This document shows, in pieces, positions 22,302 through 33,450 of a stretch of DNA of 63,206 nt. The stretch lies in the NCBI GenBank assembly GCA_019192455.1, contig JAHCML010000003.1, positions 311,244 to 374,449 of the forward strand, in the 5' to 3' direction. This DNA comes from Alphaproteobacteria bacterium SS10 (GTDB taxonomy: Bacteria; Pseudomonadota; Alphaproteobacteria; TMED2). A program made the position numbers and the translations under genes. Position 1 is the stretch's first letter; the number at the start of each line of letters is the position of its first letter. The notes below the pieces were generated by a model. That model searched no databases and was not told where the DNA came from. It was given only the letters and a program-made list of their open reading frames with translations.

Positions 22302-22832
22302 TTAAGCTGCTGCTGCTTGCTGACGTGCCAGGCCCGCCTTCTTGGTGCCATCCACCTTCAGTTTGCGGGGATGTTTCTCCCCGGTTTCGATGAAGTGTTT
22401 GAGCTCTTCTAAGCTCTCATCGATGGCCTTCTTGAACTGCATCCGCATCATCCACCCCATCAGAATGTTGAAGGGTGGGGCGATATCTGCGTTCAGGGTC
22501 ATGCGCACATTGGTGCCGTTAACGTTGTTTGGCGCTAGGGACCATGACGCCACCATTGAGCGCATGAAGCCAGGCATTTTGGCGCCAGTTGCCGCATAGG
22601 CCAGGCGATACCGGCTGGGGTCATAGCCAACAATCGTCTCGTTAAACGGGCCCATGCTGGTTTCGCAGATGCGGCCAGCACAGGGGGCGGCTGCTACCCT
22701 CGCTTTACCAGGGCGTGGGGTGGAGGCGTAGACATTGCTGGCCCAGTCGCCAGCATGCACAAAGTTCGGGCCCAGCACGTCCCAAACGCTCTCAACCGGC
22801 GCATCAATTGCCAGCACATTGGTAATCTTCAT
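22302..22832 (-). CDS. SRPBCC-family polyketide cyclase/START-like protein
   Basis: This 176-residue protein has the hydrophobic-ligand-binding SRPBCC fold. Typical features are the opening MKITNVLAIDAPVESVWDVLG, the strand segment FNETIVGYDPSRYRLAYAATG, and the long C-terminal helix around MRMQFKKAIDESLEELKHFIETGE. The C-terminus is Lys/Ala rich. The ligand is unknown. The ATG at 22832 has AAGGA about ten bases upstream. It lies about 140 bases downstream of the LysR gene on the same strand and may be co-transcribed with it. Confidence 0.82.
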   Translation of the reverse strand: MKITNVLAIDAPVESVWDVLGPNFVHAGDWASNVYASTPRPGKARVAAAPCAGRICETSMGPFNETIVGYDPSRYRLAYAATGAKMPGFMRSMVASWSLAPNNVNGTNVRMTLNADIAPPFNILMGWMMRMQFKKAIDESLEELKHFIETGEKHPRKLKVDGTKKAGLARQQAAAA

Positions 22833-22973
22833 GGTCACGTCATCCTTCGCAATGTTGGTGCGGCCTCTTGATCCGTGCCGCTTCACTAGCGCCGATGATG
22901 GGACGCAGCTTAGAGCCCGCTCAATGGAGGGTTGCGCATGCTGATCTGCAAGGATGCAGGTTGGGAGGCGCGG

Positions 22974-23894
22974 TTACTGGCCGCCCCGGGCTTGGCTGGC
23001 TGGTTCTGCCGTCTCATTCCCATTGGCTTCAAGTACGTGCTTGGTCGCCCGGGTCAGCATATCCATGGCCACCCTGATGCGGGGCACATGGCGAAGTTCC
23101 TCATGGGTCAGCAGCCAAAGGCTAATCCAGAAAGAGTGGCCCAAGGAGCGGAGGTTGGTGAGGTCGGTCCGGTACTCAATATAAGCGTCAGAGGACGCAC
23201 CAATCGCTAGCCCCGGGTTAATCGCGGCTGTCTGAGTGATGATAGAGGTGGTTCGGGCAATGATCTTGGCCCCCGGGTCAATGTCATTAATCCAACGATC
23301 ATGGACCGAATGGGCGTGCGGTTGCATGTATGACATCCAGGGCGACGTTCCCAACTGCTGGTCCGGTTGATCGGCGGCACCAAAGACCGAAAACTTTGCA
23401 TAACCCAGTCGGCGGCCAAACAGTCCTGGGCTGGGGGTTTCGGTGAACCGCAGAACGATATCGGCCTCGCGTTGATCCAGGCTTACATTCTCGTAGCTTT
23501 CCCGAAGCTCCAGATGGATGCCTGGATTTGCCTTCATGATCGGGACCAACTTTGGGGCCATCAATTCAAACAGAAAATCGAGGCTGGAGACCCGGACCGT
23601 CCCTTCTATCTGATCCTGCCCATCAAGATTGGGCAGCAGATCCTCCATTGTCCGCTCTAGCTGCCTGGCGGCCAGGACCAGGTCATCGCCCTCGGTTGAG
23701 AATTCAATCCCACCCTTGATCCGCTCAACCCGCTTGATGCCGATATCAAGCTCTAGGCGGCGCAAGCGCCGGGTCACGGTGGTCGGATCAATGCGCAGTA
23801 GCTTGGCAGCCAGGGACACTTGCCTCGTTTCTGCCATGGCAGAGATAAGGCGCAGATCATTCCAGTCGATCTGATCTATCAGGCGGTTAACCAT
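22974..23894 (-). CDS. LysR-family transcriptional regulator
   Basis: This is a 306-residue regulator with an N-terminal winged helix-turn-helix (LRLISAMAETRQVSLAAKLLRIDPTTVTRRLRRLELDIG, about residues 14-52) and a C-terminal periplasmic-binding-protein-like effector domain (from about residue 95: GTVRVSSLDFLFELMAPKLVP, then READIVLRFTETP). Its effector is unknown. It is divergent from the tetR-like gene, separated by 192 bases containing three inverted repeats. LysR regulators often control the divergent neighbour, so the operators there might be shared. Confidence 0.92.
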   Translation of the reverse strand: MVNRLIDQIDWNDLRLISAMAETRQVSLAAKLLRIDPTTVTRRLRRLELDIGIKRVERIKGGIEFSTEGDDLVLAARQLERTMEDLLPNLDGQDQIEGTVRVSSLDFLFELMAPKLVPIMKANPGIHLELRESYENVSLDQREADIVLRFTETPSPGLFGRRLGYAKFSVFGAADQPDQQLGTSPWMSYMQPHAHSVHDRWINDIDPGAKIIARTTSIITQTAAINPGLAIGASSDAYIEYRTDLTNLRSLGHSFWISLWLLTHEELRHVPRIRVAMDMLTRATKHVLEANGNETAEPASQARGGQ

Positions 23895-24030: not shown

Positions 24031-24044
24031 AGAATGACCATTCT
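24031..24044. promoter_or_regulatory. putative TetR operator, copy 1
   Basis: AGAATGACCATTCT is an inverted repeat (AGAAT/ATTCT arms) 43 bases before the tetR-like start. It shares the pattern AGAAYRAMCRTTCT with copies at 24067 and 24860. It probably binds the TetR-type regulator encoded next to it. Confidence 0.65.
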
Positions 24045-24066: not shown

Positions 24067-24080
24067 AGAACAACCGTTCT
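24067..24080. promoter_or_regulatory. putative TetR operator, copy 2
   Basis: AGAACAACCGTTCT is an inverted repeat (AGAAC/GTTCT) ending 6 bases before the tetR-like ATG. Binding here would block the gene's own transcription or translation initiation region, fitting autorepression. Confidence 0.7.
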
Positions 24081-24086
24081 TGAGCA

Positions 24087-24797
24087 ATGATGGTTTCTTC
24101 GCCCCCAGATCAGGCTATCTCAACGCCGATGACCCAAGTGACTTCCGATAAGCGGCACCATGCCATCATGGCCGCCCGCGATGTGTTTTGGCGCAATGGC
24201 TATGAAGAGGCCTCAATGACCGAGCTGGTCGAGGCGACCGGCCTGAACCGCTATGCCATTTATTCAATCTTTGGCAGCAAGCGTGATTTATTCCTGGCAA
24301 CGCTGGAATCATACTTCGCCCATGGCGAGGCGCTGTTCTATCCAATCATCAACGACACCAGCCGGCCCGCGCTGGAGCGGATTGAGCATGGCCTCTACAC
24401 GATGATTGAGCTGACCCTCCATCAGGGGCAGGGCTGTTACATCTGCCATGTCGCGGTGAAGGAGAGTGACCGCGACCAGACCGTCTGTGCCGCGGTGAAT
24501 GAATTCTTCGATCGCATCCTGGAGGCCATGTCCATGCCTATGCGGGATGCGATGGAGGCTGGGCATCTGAACCCCAACCTGACGCCCGAGATGGCGGCAC
24601 GCATCGTCTTTGCCGCTGAGATGAGCATGGGGCTCTACATTCAGGCGGCAGCGCCCCGCGAGACCCTGCAGAGCATTGCCCATGCGGCGATGGCGGCAAT
24701 CTCAGCACCTGGTGCCTGGTCACCAATTGATCCGCCAAAGATCGTCCTGCCTGAAGAGATGATCGCCTCATTTCCAAAGGCTCCGGTACCCAATTGA
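24087..24797 (+). CDS. TetR/AcrR-family transcriptional regulator
   Basis: This is a 236-residue one-component repressor. The helix-turn-helix lies at about residues 25-70 (AIMAARDVFWRNGYEEASMTELVEATGLNRYAIYSIFGSKRDLFLATLESYF). The C-terminal ligand-binding domain includes CYICHVAVKESDRDQTV, characteristic of the TetR_C group of AcrR-like proteins. Starts at 24087, 24090 or 24132 are possible; none has a strong ribosome site. It is the first gene of a likely efflux/lipid-export regulon: two operator copies precede it and a third precedes the pump gene. Confidence 0.93.
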   Translation: MMVSSPPDQAISTPMTQVTSDKRHHAIMAARDVFWRNGYEEASMTELVEATGLNRYAIYSIFGSKRDLFLATLESYFAHGEALFYPIINDTSRPALERIEHGLYTMIELTLHQGQGCYICHVAVKESDRDQTVCAAVNEFFDRILEAMSMPMRDAMEAGHLNPNLTPEMAARIVFAAEMSMGLYIQAAAPRETLQSIAHAAMAAISAPGAWSPIDPPKIVLPEEMIASFPKAPVPN

Positions 24798-24859
24798 TCC
24801 GCTGACAGCGTGTCGATCACGGCGAGTTGACGACAAATTTTCGTAATCTATCTAAAAAC

Positions 24860-24873
24860 AGAATGAACGTTCT
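24860..24873. promoter_or_regulatory. putative TetR operator, copy 3, before the MMPL gene
   Basis: AGAATGAACGTTCT, extended to CAGAA/TTCTG arms at 24859-24874, repeats the operator seen twice upstream of the tetR-like gene. It lies about 100 bases before the pump start and links regulator and pump. Confidence 0.7.
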
Positions 24874-24970
24874 GGTCATCTGTTTGGAAAGTCTGTAAGA
24901 GAGCCTCAACTCTGAAATTTTCTCGCCGCAGGCTGCCCATGCCGCGCGGTTGTCCAAAAGGAACCTCTCG

Positions 24971-27352
24971 ATGAAAGAGACAATTAAGGCGCTGGACGGC
25001 TTTGCTGTCGCGTTGGCTGAGTTCGTCATCCGTTGGCGCTATCTGACCATTTTGGCCTGTATTGGCCTTGCCTTTGGTATGGCTACCTTCGCCGCCAATC
25101 TGGGCATCGCGAATAACTACCGGGTCTTTTTCTCCGCCGATAATCCTGAGCTAACGGCGTTTGAGGAGTTCCAGACCACCTACACCAAGAATGACAACAT
25201 CCTCTTTGTGATCCGCCCTAAGAGCGGTGAGAGCTTCGACAACAGTACCCTTGCGGCCGTTGAGGCGCTGACCGCCGAGGCCTGGAAAATCCCCTTCGCC
25301 ATCCGCGTTGATAGCATCACGAATTTCCAATCAACCCGGGCAATTGAAGACGATTTGATCGTCGAAGACCTAGTCATTGATGGTGCGGGGCTCAATGCCC
25401 AAACCCGGGCGGAGAAGCAGCAGATCGCTTTAGCGGAGCCGCTGCTGCGCAATCAGCTAATCACCCCATCGGTCGATGCCACCGCTGTTAATGTGGTGCT
25501 CCAATTCCCTGAGAAGGATTTGACCGAGGTGCCCTCGGCGGTGAATGCCGCGCGTGAGCTGCGAGCGGAGATTGCGTCTCAATTCTCAGATCTTGAGATC
25601 AAGCTGACCGGCGTGGCCGTGTTGAACAACGCGTTCTCAGAGGCTGGTTTGGGCGATATGAGCTCTCTCGTGCCGCTGATGTATCTAGTTGTCCTCTTGG
25701 CATCGATTGTCGCCTTGCGCTCACTCTCGGCAGTGTTTGCAACCCTTATGGTAATCACCCTGTCGGTGATGTTTGCCATGGGTGCGGCTGGTCTCATGCA
25801 TATCGACATGACGCCGATCTCATTCAGCGCGCCGACCGTGATCATGACCCTAGCGGTGGCAGATTCCATTCACATCATGATGTCGATGCGATCGAATATG
25901 CGGCGTGGCATGGCGAAGCGTGAGGCGCTGGTCGATGCGATCCGGATCAACTTCCTGGCGGTCTCAATCACCTCGCTGACCACGATAGTTGGCTTCCTTG
26001 CGCTCAACTTCTCTGATGCCCCACCGTTCTGGCATCTGGGCAATATCACCGCGAGTGGCATCTTCGCCGCCTGGCTGTTCTCAATCACCCTGCTACCGGC
26101 CCTGGTCAGCCTGCTGCCGATGAAGGTGAAGGTTGCGGATCAGGATGGTCGCGACCCGGTGATGCGCCGGTTTGCCGATTGGGTGATCGAACGGCATCGT
26201 AGCTTGGCCGTTATCTGCATTCTGGTGGTCACTGGTCTGATCGCGATGATCCCGACCATCACCTTCAACGATCAGTGGGTTGAGTATTTCGATGAGCGGG
26301 TGGAATTCCGCCGCGATACCGACCAGGCTGTTAAGCACTTTGGCGTTTATCCGATTGAGTTCTCAATCCCAGCCGGGGCGCCGGGCGGTATCTCAGAGCC
26401 CGACTTCCTGAACCGGCTTGAGGCCTTCACGATCTGGCTGCGTGAGCAACCAAACGTCACCCATGTCTATTCGCTGTCTGACATCTTCAAGCGGCTGAAT
26501 ATGAACATGCATGCCGATGATCAGAGCTACTTCCGCACACCACAGGACCGTGAGCTTTCGGCCCAGTATCTCCTGCTTTATGAGCTGTCGCTACCCTATG
26601 GCCTGGACCTCAATGACCGTGTGAATATTGATAAGTCGGCGACCCGGGTCACCGTGACCTTTGGCAATATCACCACGGCGGAAACCAAGGAGTTTCTGGC
26701 AGCGGCGAATACCTATATCGCAGAGAACTTCCCACCCGAGCAGCAGGCCAAGCCAACCTCTGCCCAGGTGATGTTCACCTATATCACCGACCGGAATGTG
26801 CAGCAGATGATCCTGGGCACCACCATCGCCATTTTGGCAATCTCGGTGATCATGATGTTCAGCCTGCAGAGTTTCTCACTCGGACTGCTGTCATTGATCC
26901 CGAACGGGCTGCCGATTTTGGTGACCTTTGGTATCTGGGCGCTGTTGGTCAACACGGTTGGCTTCTCGGTTGCGACGGTTGCCTCGATCTCGCTTGGTAT
27001 CATTGTTGATGACACGGTCCACTTCTTGACCAAGTATCAACGTGCTCGGCGAGAGAAGGCGCTCGAGCCGCCGGACGCGATCCGCTATGCCTTTGAAACC
27101 GTGGGCTCTGCTCTAATCGTCAATACAATTGTCTTGGCGCTCGGCTTCTCGGTTCTGGCTTACTCAAGCTTCAAGATGAATGTGGATATGGGCCTGATGA
27201 CCATCATCGCGATCGTTGTTGCCCTGATCCTCGACTTCTTACTGCTGCCGGCCCTACTGCTGTTCGGCCATGGCCGTGGTGAGAAGACCTCTGATAAAGC
27301 GGTCGACACGGCAAGTAAGCCGGTGGATGACACCGCCGCCCAACCCGCTTAA
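24971..27352 (+). CDS. MMPL/RND-superfamily inner-membrane transporter
   Basis: This is a 793-residue proton-driven exporter of the RND superfamily, MMPL type. It has two repeated halves, each with one helix, a large periplasmic loop and five helices (first helix YLTILACIGLAFGMATFAA). The membrane acidic signatures are AVADSIHIMMSMR in the first half and GIIVDDTVHFLTKYQR in the second, positions that carry proton-relay aspartates in this family. Family members move lipids, hopanoids or other hydrophobic molecules to the outer leaflet. The ATG at 24971 has AAGGAA eight bases upstream; an upstream in-frame TTG at 24950 is rejected. It is followed within 30-40 bases each by a LolA-like protein and an outer-membrane barrel. 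Confidence 0.93.
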   Translation: MKETIKALDGFAVALAEFVIRWRYLTILACIGLAFGMATFAANLGIANNYRVFFSADNPELTAFEEFQTTYTKNDNILFVIRPKSGESFDNSTLAAVEALTAEAWKIPFAIRVDSITNFQSTRAIEDDLIVEDLVIDGAGLNAQTRAEKQQIALAEPLLRNQLITPSVDATAVNVVLQFPEKDLTEVPSAVNAARELRAEIASQFSDLEIKLTGVAVLNNAFSEAGLGDMSSLVPLMYLVVLLASIVALRSLSAVFATLMVITLSVMFAMGAAGLMHIDMTPISFSAPTVIMTLAVADSIHIMMSMRSNMRRGMAKREALVDAIRINFLAVSITSLTTIVGFLALNFSDAPPFWHLGNITASGIFAAWLFSITLLPALVSLLPMKVKVADQDGRDPVMRRFADWVIERHRSLAVICILVVTGLIAMIPTITFNDQWVEYFDERVEFRRDTDQAVKHFGVYPIEFSIPAGAPGGISEPDFLNRLEAFTIWLREQPNVTHVYSLSDIFKRLNMNMHADDQSYFRTPQDRELSAQYLLLYELSLPYGLDLNDRVNIDKSATRVTVTFGNITTAETKEFLAAANTYIAENFPPEQQAKPTSAQVMFTYITDRNVQQMILGTTIAILAISVIMMFSLQSFSLGLLSLIPNGLPILVTFGIWALLVNTVGFSVATVASISLGIIVDDTVHFLTKYQRARREKALEPPDAIRYAFETVGSALIVNTIVLALGFSVLAYSSFKMNVDMGLMTIIAIVVALILDFLLLPALLLFGHGRGEKTSDKAVDTASKPVDDTAAQPA

Positions 27353-27381
27353 ACCCAACGCAATACGACCGGAGTAATACG

Positions 27382-28191
27382 ATGAAGAAACTACTCGCGA
27401 CGCTGGCCGTTACGGCCCTCATCGCCTTGCCAGCTGAGATGGTTTGGGCCGTCGATGCCAGTCAGGAAGCGAAGGAGAAGGGCTTTGAGATTGCGGCCCG
27501 TTCCGATCGCTCCGACCGTGGCTTTGGTGATAGCCGGGTTGAGTTGAAGATGGTGCTGCGCAATGCCGCCGGCGCTGAAACCAGCCGGGACATGGAAATC
27601 TCCACCTTGGAGCTGCCCGATGAAGATATCGGTGACCGCAGTCTGCTAACCTTCTCCTCCCCACGGGATATCGAAGGCACGGCGCTGTTGTCCCATGCTC
27701 GCATCTTGGATCCCGATGATCAGTGGCTTTATCTGCCAGCGCTGAAGCGGGTGAAGCGCATCTCCTCAGCCAACAAATCTGGCCCGTTCGTCGGGTCTGA
27801 ATTCGCGTTTGAGGACATCACCTCGCAAGAGCTGAACAAGTTCGACTATGTCTGGCTGCGTGAAGAGGCCTGCGGTGATCTGAACTGTGACGTGGTCGAG
27901 CGGTACCCGCTTTACGAAAACTCTGGCTATACCCGTCAGGTTGCCTGGATTGACCAAACCGACTTCCAGGTCCGTAAGGTTGAGTACTACGACCGCAAGG
28001 ATGATCTGCTGAAGACCCAGACTTTTGAGGATTACCGCCTCTATAACGACAAGTTCTGGCGTGCCCAGGTGTTCCGGATGGTGAACCACCAAACCGGTAA
28101 GAGCACCGATCTAATCTTTGGCGATTACATCTTTGAGGTGGGCCTCGACGATGGTGACTTTGTGAAAGGTGTGCTGCGCCGTCAGCGTTAA
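27382..28191 (+). CDS. LolA-like outer-membrane lipoprotein-sorting family protein
   Basis: This is a 269-residue exported protein. A Sec signal peptide is clear (MKKLLATLAVTALIALPAEMVWA, cleavage near residue 23). The mature part has the LolA/LppX-type half-barrel sequence: RVELKMVLRNAAGAETSRDMEI, LLTFSSPRDIEGTALLSH, DDQWLYLPALKRVKRISSANKSGPFVGSEFAFEDI and VRKVEYYDRKDDLLKTQTFEDY. This subfamily is regularly encoded beside MMPL pumps and is thought to ferry hydrophobic cargo across the periplasm. No lipobox cysteine is present, so it is probably soluble. The start is the ATG at 27382, 29 bases after the pump stop. Confidence 0.88.
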   Translation: MKKLLATLAVTALIALPAEMVWAVDASQEAKEKGFEIAARSDRSDRGFGDSRVELKMVLRNAAGAETSRDMEISTLELPDEDIGDRSLLTFSSPRDIEGTALLSHARILDPDDQWLYLPALKRVKRISSANKSGPFVGSEFAFEDITSQELNKFDYVWLREEACGDLNCDVVERYPLYENSGYTRQVAWIDQTDFQVRKVEYYDRKDDLLKTQTFEDYRLYNDKFWRAQVFRMVNHQTGKSTDLIFGDYIFEVGLDDGDFVKGVLRRQR

Positions 28192-28227
28192 GGCTGGGGG
28201 CTTGGGCTTTAAGGGGTAGGCAAGCTT

Positions 28228-29457
28228 ATGCGTTGGTTTACGAGAGGCAGTGCGGCCTTGCTGGCACTGATTGCGACGCCTGCCCTGGCCCAGGAACTTG
28301 ATCTGGGTGGGGTGTGGGAGAACACGGATATCAGCACCCAGCTCGCCTTTGAGCCGCGCTGGTTCCCCAGTGACCCGGCCTTCCCCGATCAGTTTGATGG
28401 CATTCAGTTCTCGGGCTTCATTCAACCTGAAATCTTCTGGGAGAATGATGACAGGGATGCCCAGGTTGCCTTGACCCCATTCCTGCGCCTCGATGCCCAG
28501 GATGATGAACGCACCCATTTCGACATGCGGGAAGCCTACTTCCGCCGCATCATTGATGATTGGGAAGTGTTGGTGGGCCTGAACCAGGTTTTCTGGGGCG
28601 TTACGGAATCCCGCCACCTAGTCAACATCATCAATCAGATCGATACGCTGGAAGACACGGCTGAGGAGGATTTCCTCGGCCAGCCCATGGTGCAGGTAGG
28701 GCACCAAACCGATATCGGTCGCTTTGATGCGTTCCTAATGCCGTATTTCCGGGAGCGGACCTTCGCCGGTCCTGACGGGCGCCTGCGTGGTCCCTTGCCG
28801 GTTGATACCGACCGGGCAGAGTATGAGAGCGATTTGGAAGAGCTGCGCCCTGATATTGCGCTCCGCTATGCCCATTTCATCGGTGATTTCGATGTCGGCC
28901 TGCACTACTTCCACGGCACTGGGCGGGAGCCTGACTTCCGCCTATCCGCCGATGGCACACGCCTGATCCCCCGCTATGTGGTGATCAATCAGGTTGGCGC
29001 TGATCTCCAATACACAACCGATGCCTGGCTTTGGAAATTTGAAGGCCTGGTGCGTGAGGGGCAGGGCGATACCTTTGCCGCCGCCGTTGCCGGGTTTGAG
29101 TACACGCTGTTCCAGGTATTGGAGAGTGATGCCGATCTCGGTTTTCTCGGTGAGGTGCTTTATGACGGCCGGGATGATGATGACCCGTCGGTCTTCCCCT
29201 CCGTGCTTGAGCGTGATGTCTTCATGGGCACGCGTCTGACCCTCAACGATATCCAAGACACCGCCATGTTGTTTGGTGTGACGGTTGATACTGAGGATGG
29301 CCTGGGCGGCTTCCGGTTAGAGGCTGAGCGCCGATTTGGCGATAGCTGGTTCGTTGAACTTGAGGCGCAGGCCTTCCTTGAAGATGATCCGGATAATCCT
29401 GCCTCGGTCTTTGACCGGGACAGCTTTGTCACCCTGCGCATTTCCAAGTATTTCTAA
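28228..29457 (+). CDS. outer-membrane beta-barrel protein of the MMPL cassette
   Basis: This is a 409-residue outer-membrane protein with a signal peptide (MRWFTRGSAALLALIATPALAQE, cleavage after ALA near residue 21). It has many alternating amphipathic strands and a C-terminal phenylalanine (FVTLRISKYF), the BAM recognition end. The central phrase EVLVGLNQVFWGVTESRHLVNIINQID recalls porin-like proteins encoded with RND/MMPL pumps and LolA-like partners. It is probably the outer-membrane exit or docking component of the cassette. It lies 36 bases after the LolA-like gene and ends 2 bases before the convergent MscS gene. Confidence 0.82.
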   Translation: MRWFTRGSAALLALIATPALAQELDLGGVWENTDISTQLAFEPRWFPSDPAFPDQFDGIQFSGFIQPEIFWENDDRDAQVALTPFLRLDAQDDERTHFDMREAYFRRIIDDWEVLVGLNQVFWGVTESRHLVNIINQIDTLEDTAEEDFLGQPMVQVGHQTDIGRFDAFLMPYFRERTFAGPDGRLRGPLPVDTDRAEYESDLEELRPDIALRYAHFIGDFDVGLHYFHGTGREPDFRLSADGTRLIPRYVVINQVGADLQYTTDAWLWKFEGLVREGQGDTFAAAVAGFEYTLFQVLESDADLGFLGEVLYDGRDDDDPSVFPSVLERDVFMGTRLTLNDIQDTAMLFGVTVDTEDGLGGFRLEAERRFGDSWFVELEAQAFLEDDPDNPASVFDRDSFVTLRISKYF

Positions 29458-31847: not shown

Positions 31848-32921
31848 TCAAAATTTCGCTGAGATGCTAAAGGCACCGAATTGCTGGCGACCACCCTGGG
31901 TCATGAATTCCTCAGTGCGGGTGACATAGGTGTAAGCCAGCTGCACGCCTCGAACCTGCATGGCGACACCAACCTGAAAATCAGCGACCAACGGACGTCG
32001 ATCAACGCTGGGCCCGCCACTGCGTAACAGGTTGCCATCCAGGAAGATGTTGTAGCCAACAGCGCGTCCCACAACGCCGCCAAACACATACCAGCTGAAA
32101 TCATCCTTTGGATCAAAGAAGCCGCCGCCCGCAAGCGCTGGCCTTACCCGCGGCGGGCCAAAATCATTGCGGAGATCTTGGCCAAACCGGAAGGTGACGC
32201 CGAGCTGCGCCTGGGTAAGCACATTACCGACGGAGAAGCCCGCACTGGGCGTGATGTCAAAGCCGTAACCGTCAAACAGGTCGTCTTCAGCGCCCTGCCA
32301 GTCGAAGACGCTGCGGAAGCTTCGGTCATAGCTGATCAGCAGCGCTGGTTCGTTTGCCAGTTGGTTGTCCCAGCCATTCGCCTCATCGACACCGATCAGT
32401 TTGTGGAAGTTGTTCTGAACCTGCTCGCCCAGTGCGGCATCGCCGACGATGCCCAATTGCAGGGTTAGGGTATCCAGCGCCTGTGGTCGCTCAACCTGCA
32501 GTGCAACCTCACCATAGAGATAACCAGCATAGGGATGCTGGTCGGGCAGGGGTTGGGTCGCCTCGATATCTTCTGGCGTGAAGATGCTATGCCCGGCGGC
32601 GAGGCCAAAGCGGATGTTGTCTGTGCCGTCGGCATCCAACAGCAGTCGCGCCGCCTTTGACGCGTCAGCGCCCAACCTCTGTGTTGGTGACAGGTACGAG
32701 ATGCGGTTGCCGTTGGTGTAGTTGCGATCCGTCCCGCCGAAGGTGTCGTTCTCCCAGATGAAGGTGAAGGTGCCTTTCTCATCCGGCATCAGGTTGCGGC
32801 GGTCGCTATCATCGAGGCGCTGTGCCACCTCATCTGCAAGGGCGCTGAGGGATGGCAAGCAAAAGGCCAGGGCGGTGATTACCACCGCCACTGGCCCCAA
32901 TGCTTTTCGGATTTTAGTCAT
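31848..32921 (-). CDS. LpxR-like lipid A 3'-O-deacylase family protein
   Basis: This is a 357-residue outer-membrane protein with a signal peptide (MTKIRKALGPVAVVITALAFCLPSLSALA). The mature N-terminus FTFIWENDTFGGTDRNYTNGNRISYLSP matches the LpxR (DUF2219) signature, ENDxF...DxxYTNG. LpxR is a 12-strand barrel that removes the 3'-acyloxyacyl chain of lipid A with calcium. A C-terminal Phe (FGAFSISAKF) supports a barrel. Start: the ATG at 32921 gives a clean signal peptide; an in-frame GTG at 32960 would overlap the upstream gene's end. Whether this homologue is active is not shown by sequence alone. Confidence 0.9.
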   Translation of the reverse strand: MTKIRKALGPVAVVITALAFCLPSLSALADEVAQRLDDSDRRNLMPDEKGTFTFIWENDTFGGTDRNYTNGNRISYLSPTQRLGADASKAARLLLDADGTDNIRFGLAAGHSIFTPEDIEATQPLPDQHPYAGYLYGEVALQVERPQALDTLTLQLGIVGDAALGEQVQNNFHKLIGVDEANGWDNQLANEPALLISYDRSFRSVFDWQGAEDDLFDGYGFDITPSAGFSVGNVLTQAQLGVTFRFGQDLRNDFGPPRVRPALAGGGFFDPKDDFSWYVFGGVVGRAVGYNIFLDGNLLRSGGPSVDRRPLVADFQVGVAMQVRGVQLAYTYVTRTEEFMTQGGRQQFGAFSISAKF

Positions 32922-32946
32922 CCGTCCGGTGACGTAGCTGGGTGAC

Positions 32947-33450
32947 TTATTCGTCGTCACCGCCGCGCCGTTTCACATCGCCGAGGTCTTCGTCACCATC
33001 CATGTCGTCATCACTGACGAGGACGTCATCATCATCGATGTCATCGCCGAGGTCGCTATCAAGATCGTCGGCGTCATCATCGCCATCGTCATCTTCGTCT
33101 TCGTCCTTGGCGCCAGCGGCAACTGCGTCGTCATCGCCGTCGAGCTCATCAATCTCTTTGATGTTCTCGTCTTCCTCTTCCTCGAGCTCGTCCTCGTCGG
33201 TTTCAGCCGCCGTGGTTTCGAGATCTTCTTCCTCTTCTTCGACCTCCGCCTCTTTAGCCTTCTTCTTGGAAGCCTTCTTCGGTGCAGGTTTGTCGTCCGG
33301 TGCGGTCCGGCTGCGGCGTGACTTCAGCAGCGCCTCAGGGTCGTATTCGGTGCCACATGATGGGCAAACCGGTGGATTTTTCGCCATGTCGTAATAGCGA
33401 GTGCCGCAGTTAGGGCAGATGCGTTTGATGCCAAGGTCAACCTTGCTCAC
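32947..33450 (-). CDS. TIGR02300-type zinc-ribbon protein with long acidic tail
   Basis: This is a 167-residue protein with an N-terminal two-CxxC zinc ribbon (DLGIKRICPNCGTRYYDMAKNPPVCPSCG), a basic patch (KKASKKKAKEAE) and an almost uninterrupted Asp/Glu tail from about residue 80. The FYDLN-type ribbon and the location beside aroA are typical of alphaproteobacteria; the function is unknown. I place the start at the GTG at 33450, which has AGGAG nine bases upstream and begins right before the conserved block. The open frame extends to an ATG at 33537, which would add 29 unconserved residues. A Ser-rich frame on the other strand is an artefact of the acidic codons. Confidence 0.85.
   Translation of the reverse strand: MSKVDLGIKRICPNCGTRYYDMAKNPPVCPSCGTEYDPEALLKSRRSRTAPDDKPAPKKASKKKAKEAEVEEEEEDLETTAAETDEDELEEEEDENIKEIDELDGDDDAVAAGAKDEDEDDDGDDDADDLDSDLGDDIDDDDVLVSDDDMDGDEDLGDVKRRGGDDE

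Follow-up and report, generated by a model that had tools for sequence, protein, structure and literature searches.

Related transport systems

The AmeABCD system of Castellaniella defragrans carries out efflux of apolar monoterpenes, and its deletion lowers monoterpene tolerance and raises the influx of Nile Red (PMC6394551). It consists of an RND pump of the HAE3/MMPL type, a periplasmic protein of the LolA superfamily and an outer-membrane barrel, as does the cassette described here. The two differ in that AmeABCD includes a YCF48-like protein, AmeC, along with DUF1329 and DUF1302 proteins, and has the gene order barrel-carrier-AmeC-pump, whereas the present cassette has the order pump-carrier-barrel, lacks AmeC, and has a PF17131 carrier and a barrel that is not recognised as DUF1302.

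In Thalassolituus oleivorans, the genes TOL_3187 and TOL_3188 are induced by n-C28, and a role in the export of outer-membrane proteins together with alkane uptake was proposed for them (PMC6304351). Their described architecture is similar to that of the cassette: a fused MMPL and LolA-like protein, with a porin-like protein that lacks recognisable domains encoded directly after it. An operon of the TetR-MMPL-LolA-like type, induced by limitation of iron or hemin, is present in the oral Bacteroidetes Porphyromonas and Prevotella. Judged from its description, it brings like gene types together next to a TetR gene, and its copies include ABC transporter genes. HpnN and the mycobacterial MmpL transporters have the pump fold and family in common with the pump of the cassette; we know of no PF17131 carrier or barrel gene that is their fixed operon partner.

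Two further systems were considered and rejected as counterparts. Tripartite efflux of the HAE1 (AcrAB-TolC) type does not correspond, as the cassette has no membrane-fusion gene and its barrel is not TolC-type. In the AupAB alkane uptake system AupA, the partner of AupB, is FadL-like, and the paper describing it mentions neither MMPL nor LolA.

Organization of the locus

The window is a stretch of 63,206 nucleotides from Alphaproteobacteria bacterium SS10. Four open reading frames, all on the + strand, are confirmed at 24087-29457 (Table 1). The original prediction had described a TetR-linked row of four genes with one component for each compartment of the envelope, and the reading frames, the Pfam matches and the barrel model bear this out. 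Intergenic gaps of 30 to about 170 bases had been noted; those measured are 152 bp between tetR and the pump gene (173 bp when counted to the ATG), 29 bp between pump and carrier and 36 bp between carrier and barrel. The listed pump frame, 24950-27352, starts with a TTG. This start is probably wrong and the ATG at 24971 better placed, because a better Shine-Dalgarno sequence (aaagga) precedes the latter.

Table 1. Genes and candidate operator sites of the cassette, in window coordinates
Feature	Position	Strand	Evidence
tetR, TetR-family regulator, 236 aa	24087..24797	+	PF00440 (TetR_N) 2.1e-11
pump, MMPL/HAE3-type RND, inner membrane, 793 aa	24971..27352	+	PF03176 1.8e-36
carrier, LolA_like, putative periplasmic hydrophobic carrier, 269 aa	27382..28191	+	PF17131 4.6e-56
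barrel, outer-membrane beta-barrel, 409 aa, ends ...SKYF	28228..29457	+	fold model; terminal Phe
palindrome AGAATGACCATTCT, candidate TetR operator 1, tetR promoter	24031..24044	.	AGAAYNNNNRTTCT pattern match
palindrome AGAACAACCGTTCT, candidate TetR operator 2, just before tetR	24067..24080	.	AGAAYNNNNRTTCT pattern match
palindrome AGAATGAACGTTCT, candidate TetR operator 3, pump promoter	24860..24873	.	AGAAYNNNNRTTCT pattern match

The flanking genes, LysR and SRPBCC upstream and an MscS-like gene downstream, are on the opposite strand and thus delimit the four-gene unit. The LysR regulator and the SRPBCC-fold protein (22302-23894, - strand) are divergent from the cassette, and the pair was not found beside homologous cassettes. 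An outer-membrane protein of the LpxR family (lipid A 3-O-deacylase family; PF09982, 3.9e-102) is encoded at 31848-32960 on the - strand. A scan for sigma-70 promoters and terminators gave nothing above chance, and no YCF48/AmeC-like gene is present among the frames of the cassette. Elsewhere in its genome the host has a complete AmeABCD-type set (L029:1650-8513, G000:C6), in which DUF1302, DUF1329 and YCF48-like proteins and an HAE3 pump are followed by a TetR gene. The pumps of the two sets are about 20% identical.

Conservation of gene order

Among 299 Pseudomonadota genomes, 68 have a carrier-like match. The PF17131 matches fall into two score classes, and gene order was checked in the upper one, a high-scoring subfamily found in about 30 of the 299, so that counting PF17131 alone would overstate the spread of the system. 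All 29 loci fetched from this survey, each belonging to the high-scoring subfamily, have the order pump-carrier-barrel. With a profile built from seven carriers (A1), related stretches were recovered from named genomes, at least 588 in all. Among the best 80 of these, which were kept, a same-strand pump is present in 72, a same-strand barrel in 72, and both, in the order pump-carrier-barrel, in 67. The exceptions include three loci that stop at a contig edge (L080, L081, L089). Co-occurrence of the gene order in other genomes had been named beforehand as a check, and the order is clearly not unique to this host. Since it is kept on one strand in both sets of homologous loci, far beyond chance, pump, carrier and barrel form a real unit. 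The genes are tightly packed, with median gaps between listed frames of -4 and +5 bp in the homologous loci.

The hosts include Alpha- and Gammaproteobacteria, Nitrosomonas, Desulfobulbaceae, Nitrospinaceae, Acidobacteriota, Zixibacteria and one planctomycete. These groups are intermingled in the pump tree, which suggests transfer between classes and phyla; the nearest relative of the window pump, 68% identical, is from Rhodospirillaceae UBA4479. In two loci (L066:8872-14027 and L078:8929-14127) a carrier and a barrel without an MMPL pump lie beside a convergent gene for an AcrB-type (PF00873) pump. A search for recurrent neighbours in the homologous loci found TetR clusters as the sole consistent ones, and the genomic context therefore gives no hint of the substrate.

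The regulator and its candidate operators

A TetR gene adjoins the pump gene in 35 of the 60 loci with enough upstream sequence, on the same strand in 27 and divergently in 8, and is missing from this position in the other 25. Elsewhere in the homologous loci there are only two TetR genes among about 1028 genes. The 14-bp palindrome AGAAYNNNNRTTCT occurs at five places in the 3.19-Mb host genome, three of which are in the tetR and pump promoters of the cassette. This motif was derived from the window, so its independent support comes from three relatives, L043, L049 and L057, in which it recurs in the promoter of tetR, of the pump gene or of both. The TetR thus appears to be dedicated to the cassette and would bind these operator-like palindromes.

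The second palindrome ends 6 bp before the listed ATG of tetR, and translation may in fact begin at an in-frame ATG at 24129. Many of the same-strand adjacent TetRs have a 'GC' cysteine motif, which the divergent ones do not have.

The pump and its fusions with the carrier

The best NCBIfam match of the pump is to the HAE3 subfamily TIGR00921, below the cut-off. Identification of the pump as the hopanoid transporter HpnN was rejected, as the HpnN profiles TIGR03480 (129.6 bits, cut-off 751.85) and NF052374 (60.5 bits, cut-off 1100) score under their cut-offs. Residues His301, Asp680 and His684, in two transmembrane motifs, are identical in 66 of 66 pumps, a pattern consistent with proton coupling of the RND type.

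In six loci (L037, L040, L046, L048, L051, L065) pump and carrier are a single reading frame of 1053-1089 residues, an arrangement that parallels the TOL_3187 fusion. L039 is a truncated further case, bringing the total to six or seven. The fusions fall in at least two separate clades of the pump tree and are evidence, from gene structure, that pump and carrier work together. At the junctions a hydrophobic signal-like stretch is retained after the last pump helix and before the carrier; the fused carrier would for this reason still face the periplasm, either tethered or released. An internal Met is kept at several junctions, making separate initiation of the carrier possible. The model of the fused protein of L037 (pLDDT 87, pTM 0.73) has a linker of low confidence and an ambiguous placement of the carrier relative to the pump. 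Its best structural matches are MmpL4, MmpL5, MmpL3, NPC1L1 and HpnN.

The carrier

The carrier scores 189.8 bits for PF17131, where the cut-off is 30, and has a weaker match to DUF1329. The two families are connected by Pfam cross-matches; alignment of the carrier to the host DUF1329 protein with hhalign, in which the template was a single sequence, gave no support. Both carrier and barrel have evident N-terminal signal peptides, as judged by eye, and the carrier has no lipobox. Its homologues of solved structure are 3bk5 from Vibrio parahaemolyticus (1.1e-75) and 9TP6, the LolA3 of Porphyromonas gingivalis (2.4e-27).

Proteins of the PF17131 family do not seem to act in the Lol pathway. The P. 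gingivalis LolA3 (LolA3-PG) barely binds LolB (PMC13103446), and deletion of lolA3 in Flavobacterium johnsoniae leaves gliding and T9 secretion intact, with no lipoprotein-type phenotype (PMC11885536). On account of these results a Lol role is disfavoured. The original view of a system distinct from Lpt and Lol gains support.

The barrel

No Pfam family was found for the barrel. An AlphaFold2 model calculated with 62 homologues as input has a mean pLDDT of 93.2, and a C-terminal Phe is present in 67 of 71 homologues, in agreement with the earlier assignment of an outer-membrane barrel with a terminal Phe. The best solved matches are OccD2 (Z 23.4) and AlgE (Z 22.9), each over about 300 residues with about 10% identity, and they speak to the fold only; the predicted fold is OprD/AlgE-like. 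A TolC-type conduit was rejected because barrels of the OprD/AlgE type match over the whole length. As the barrel is not TolC-like, a carrier would have to bridge the periplasm.

Only one of the 62 barrel homologues touches DUF1302 (7.6e-6). Comparison of the barrel with the host's own DUF1302 protein by hhalign, again with a single sequence as template, gave no profile match, and Toluene_X/FadL was matched by neither the window barrel nor its homologues. Some homologues carry an added SPOR or AMIN domain (L098:9769-11436, L076:6134-8011, L100:4483-6276), which suggests contact with peptidoglycan and possible tethers.

Proposed mechanism

The gene identities, the conserved order, the pump-carrier fusions, the operator-like palindromes and the predicted barrel fold form the basis from which we infer regulator binding, energy coupling, carrier function, cargo and direction. 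The cassette probably exports a hydrophobic compound, either a small molecule or a lipid, in a process driven by protons and switched on by release of the TetR. The TetR would occupy the three candidate operators, repressing itself and the pump operon, and would release the DNA once a hydrophobic ligand builds up. The pump would then draw the compound from the inner membrane at the expense of protons and pass it to the LolA-fold protein, which would shield it through the periplasm and hand it over to the barrel, to be freed at or past the outer membrane. Inducible export is the best reading of the anatomy of the cassette and of its likeness to AmeABCD. Substrates may differ among relatives, some possibly being imported, since these relatives respond to an n-C28 alkane or to iron starvation.

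Transport in the opposite direction, with the barrel admitting alkanes or esters, the LolA-like protein carrying them inward and the pump driving or clearing the carrier, is unlikely, though not far-fetched. TOL_3187 is raised 42-fold and TOL_3188 is found only on n-C28, and in Pseudomonas putida DUF1302, DUF1329, RND and periplasmic genes are required for the use of Tween 20, with contacts predicted between their products (PMC10866462). Such growth phenotypes are, however, equally explained by detoxification, as in AmeABCD. The host genome was checked for AlkB-type proteins and P450s and encodes none of the former (PF00487) and one of the latter, so that alkane oxidation by AlkB is unlikely in this organism; the regulator is a TetR, a type common for efflux. 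To our knowledge, RND/MMPL pumps of known direction are exporters, which also counts against uptake.

It is quite improbable that pump and carrier bring an endogenous hopanoid- or glycolipid-like lipid to its place in the outer membrane, in the manner of HpnN or MmpL/LppX. The pump does resemble HpnN and the lipid-exporting MmpLs in sequence and fold, and LolA-fold carriers are typical lipid shuttles. Nevertheless, no lipid-biosynthesis gene is conserved as a linked gene in the homologous loci, and an accessory role under particular conditions is suggested by the patchy spread, the apparent transfer and the dedicated TetR. Delivery of the barrel or of lipoproteins to the outer membrane, as the Thalassolituus authors proposed, is scarcely credible: the LolA fold of PF17131 and its family name, 'outer membrane lipoprotein-sorting protein', speak for it, but the LolA3 results stand against this role, outer-membrane barrels use Sec and BAM, and the present barrel has a Sec-like signal and a C-terminal Phe.

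Implications

The general design of HAE3 pump, LolA-fold protein and barrel is already described, in AmeABCD and TOL_3187/3188. The present cassette departs from AmeABCD in its gene order, the absence of AmeC, its different carrier family and its uncatalogued barrel family, and the original interpretation as a whole is partly supported. It is a three-gene variant of such HAE3/LolA-fold/barrel transporters that is widespread and largely uncharacterised, and no functional tests of it were found in the literature searched. More tentatively, export by the cassette may exemplify a general and transferable route in which a LolA-fold shuttle between pump and barrel, tethered to the pump in some cases, takes the place of the fixed periplasmic tube of AcrAB-TolC and serves to expel hydrophobic toxicants past the outer membrane.

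The cassette would account for many genes that are misleadingly annotated as 'lipoprotein-sorting'. It has its own regulator, operator-like sites and natural fusions of pump and carrier, and both a solved homologue of the carrier and a high-confidence model of the barrel are at hand, which makes directly testable the question of how hydrophobic cargo of Gram-negative MMPL/HAE3 pumps travels past the periplasm.
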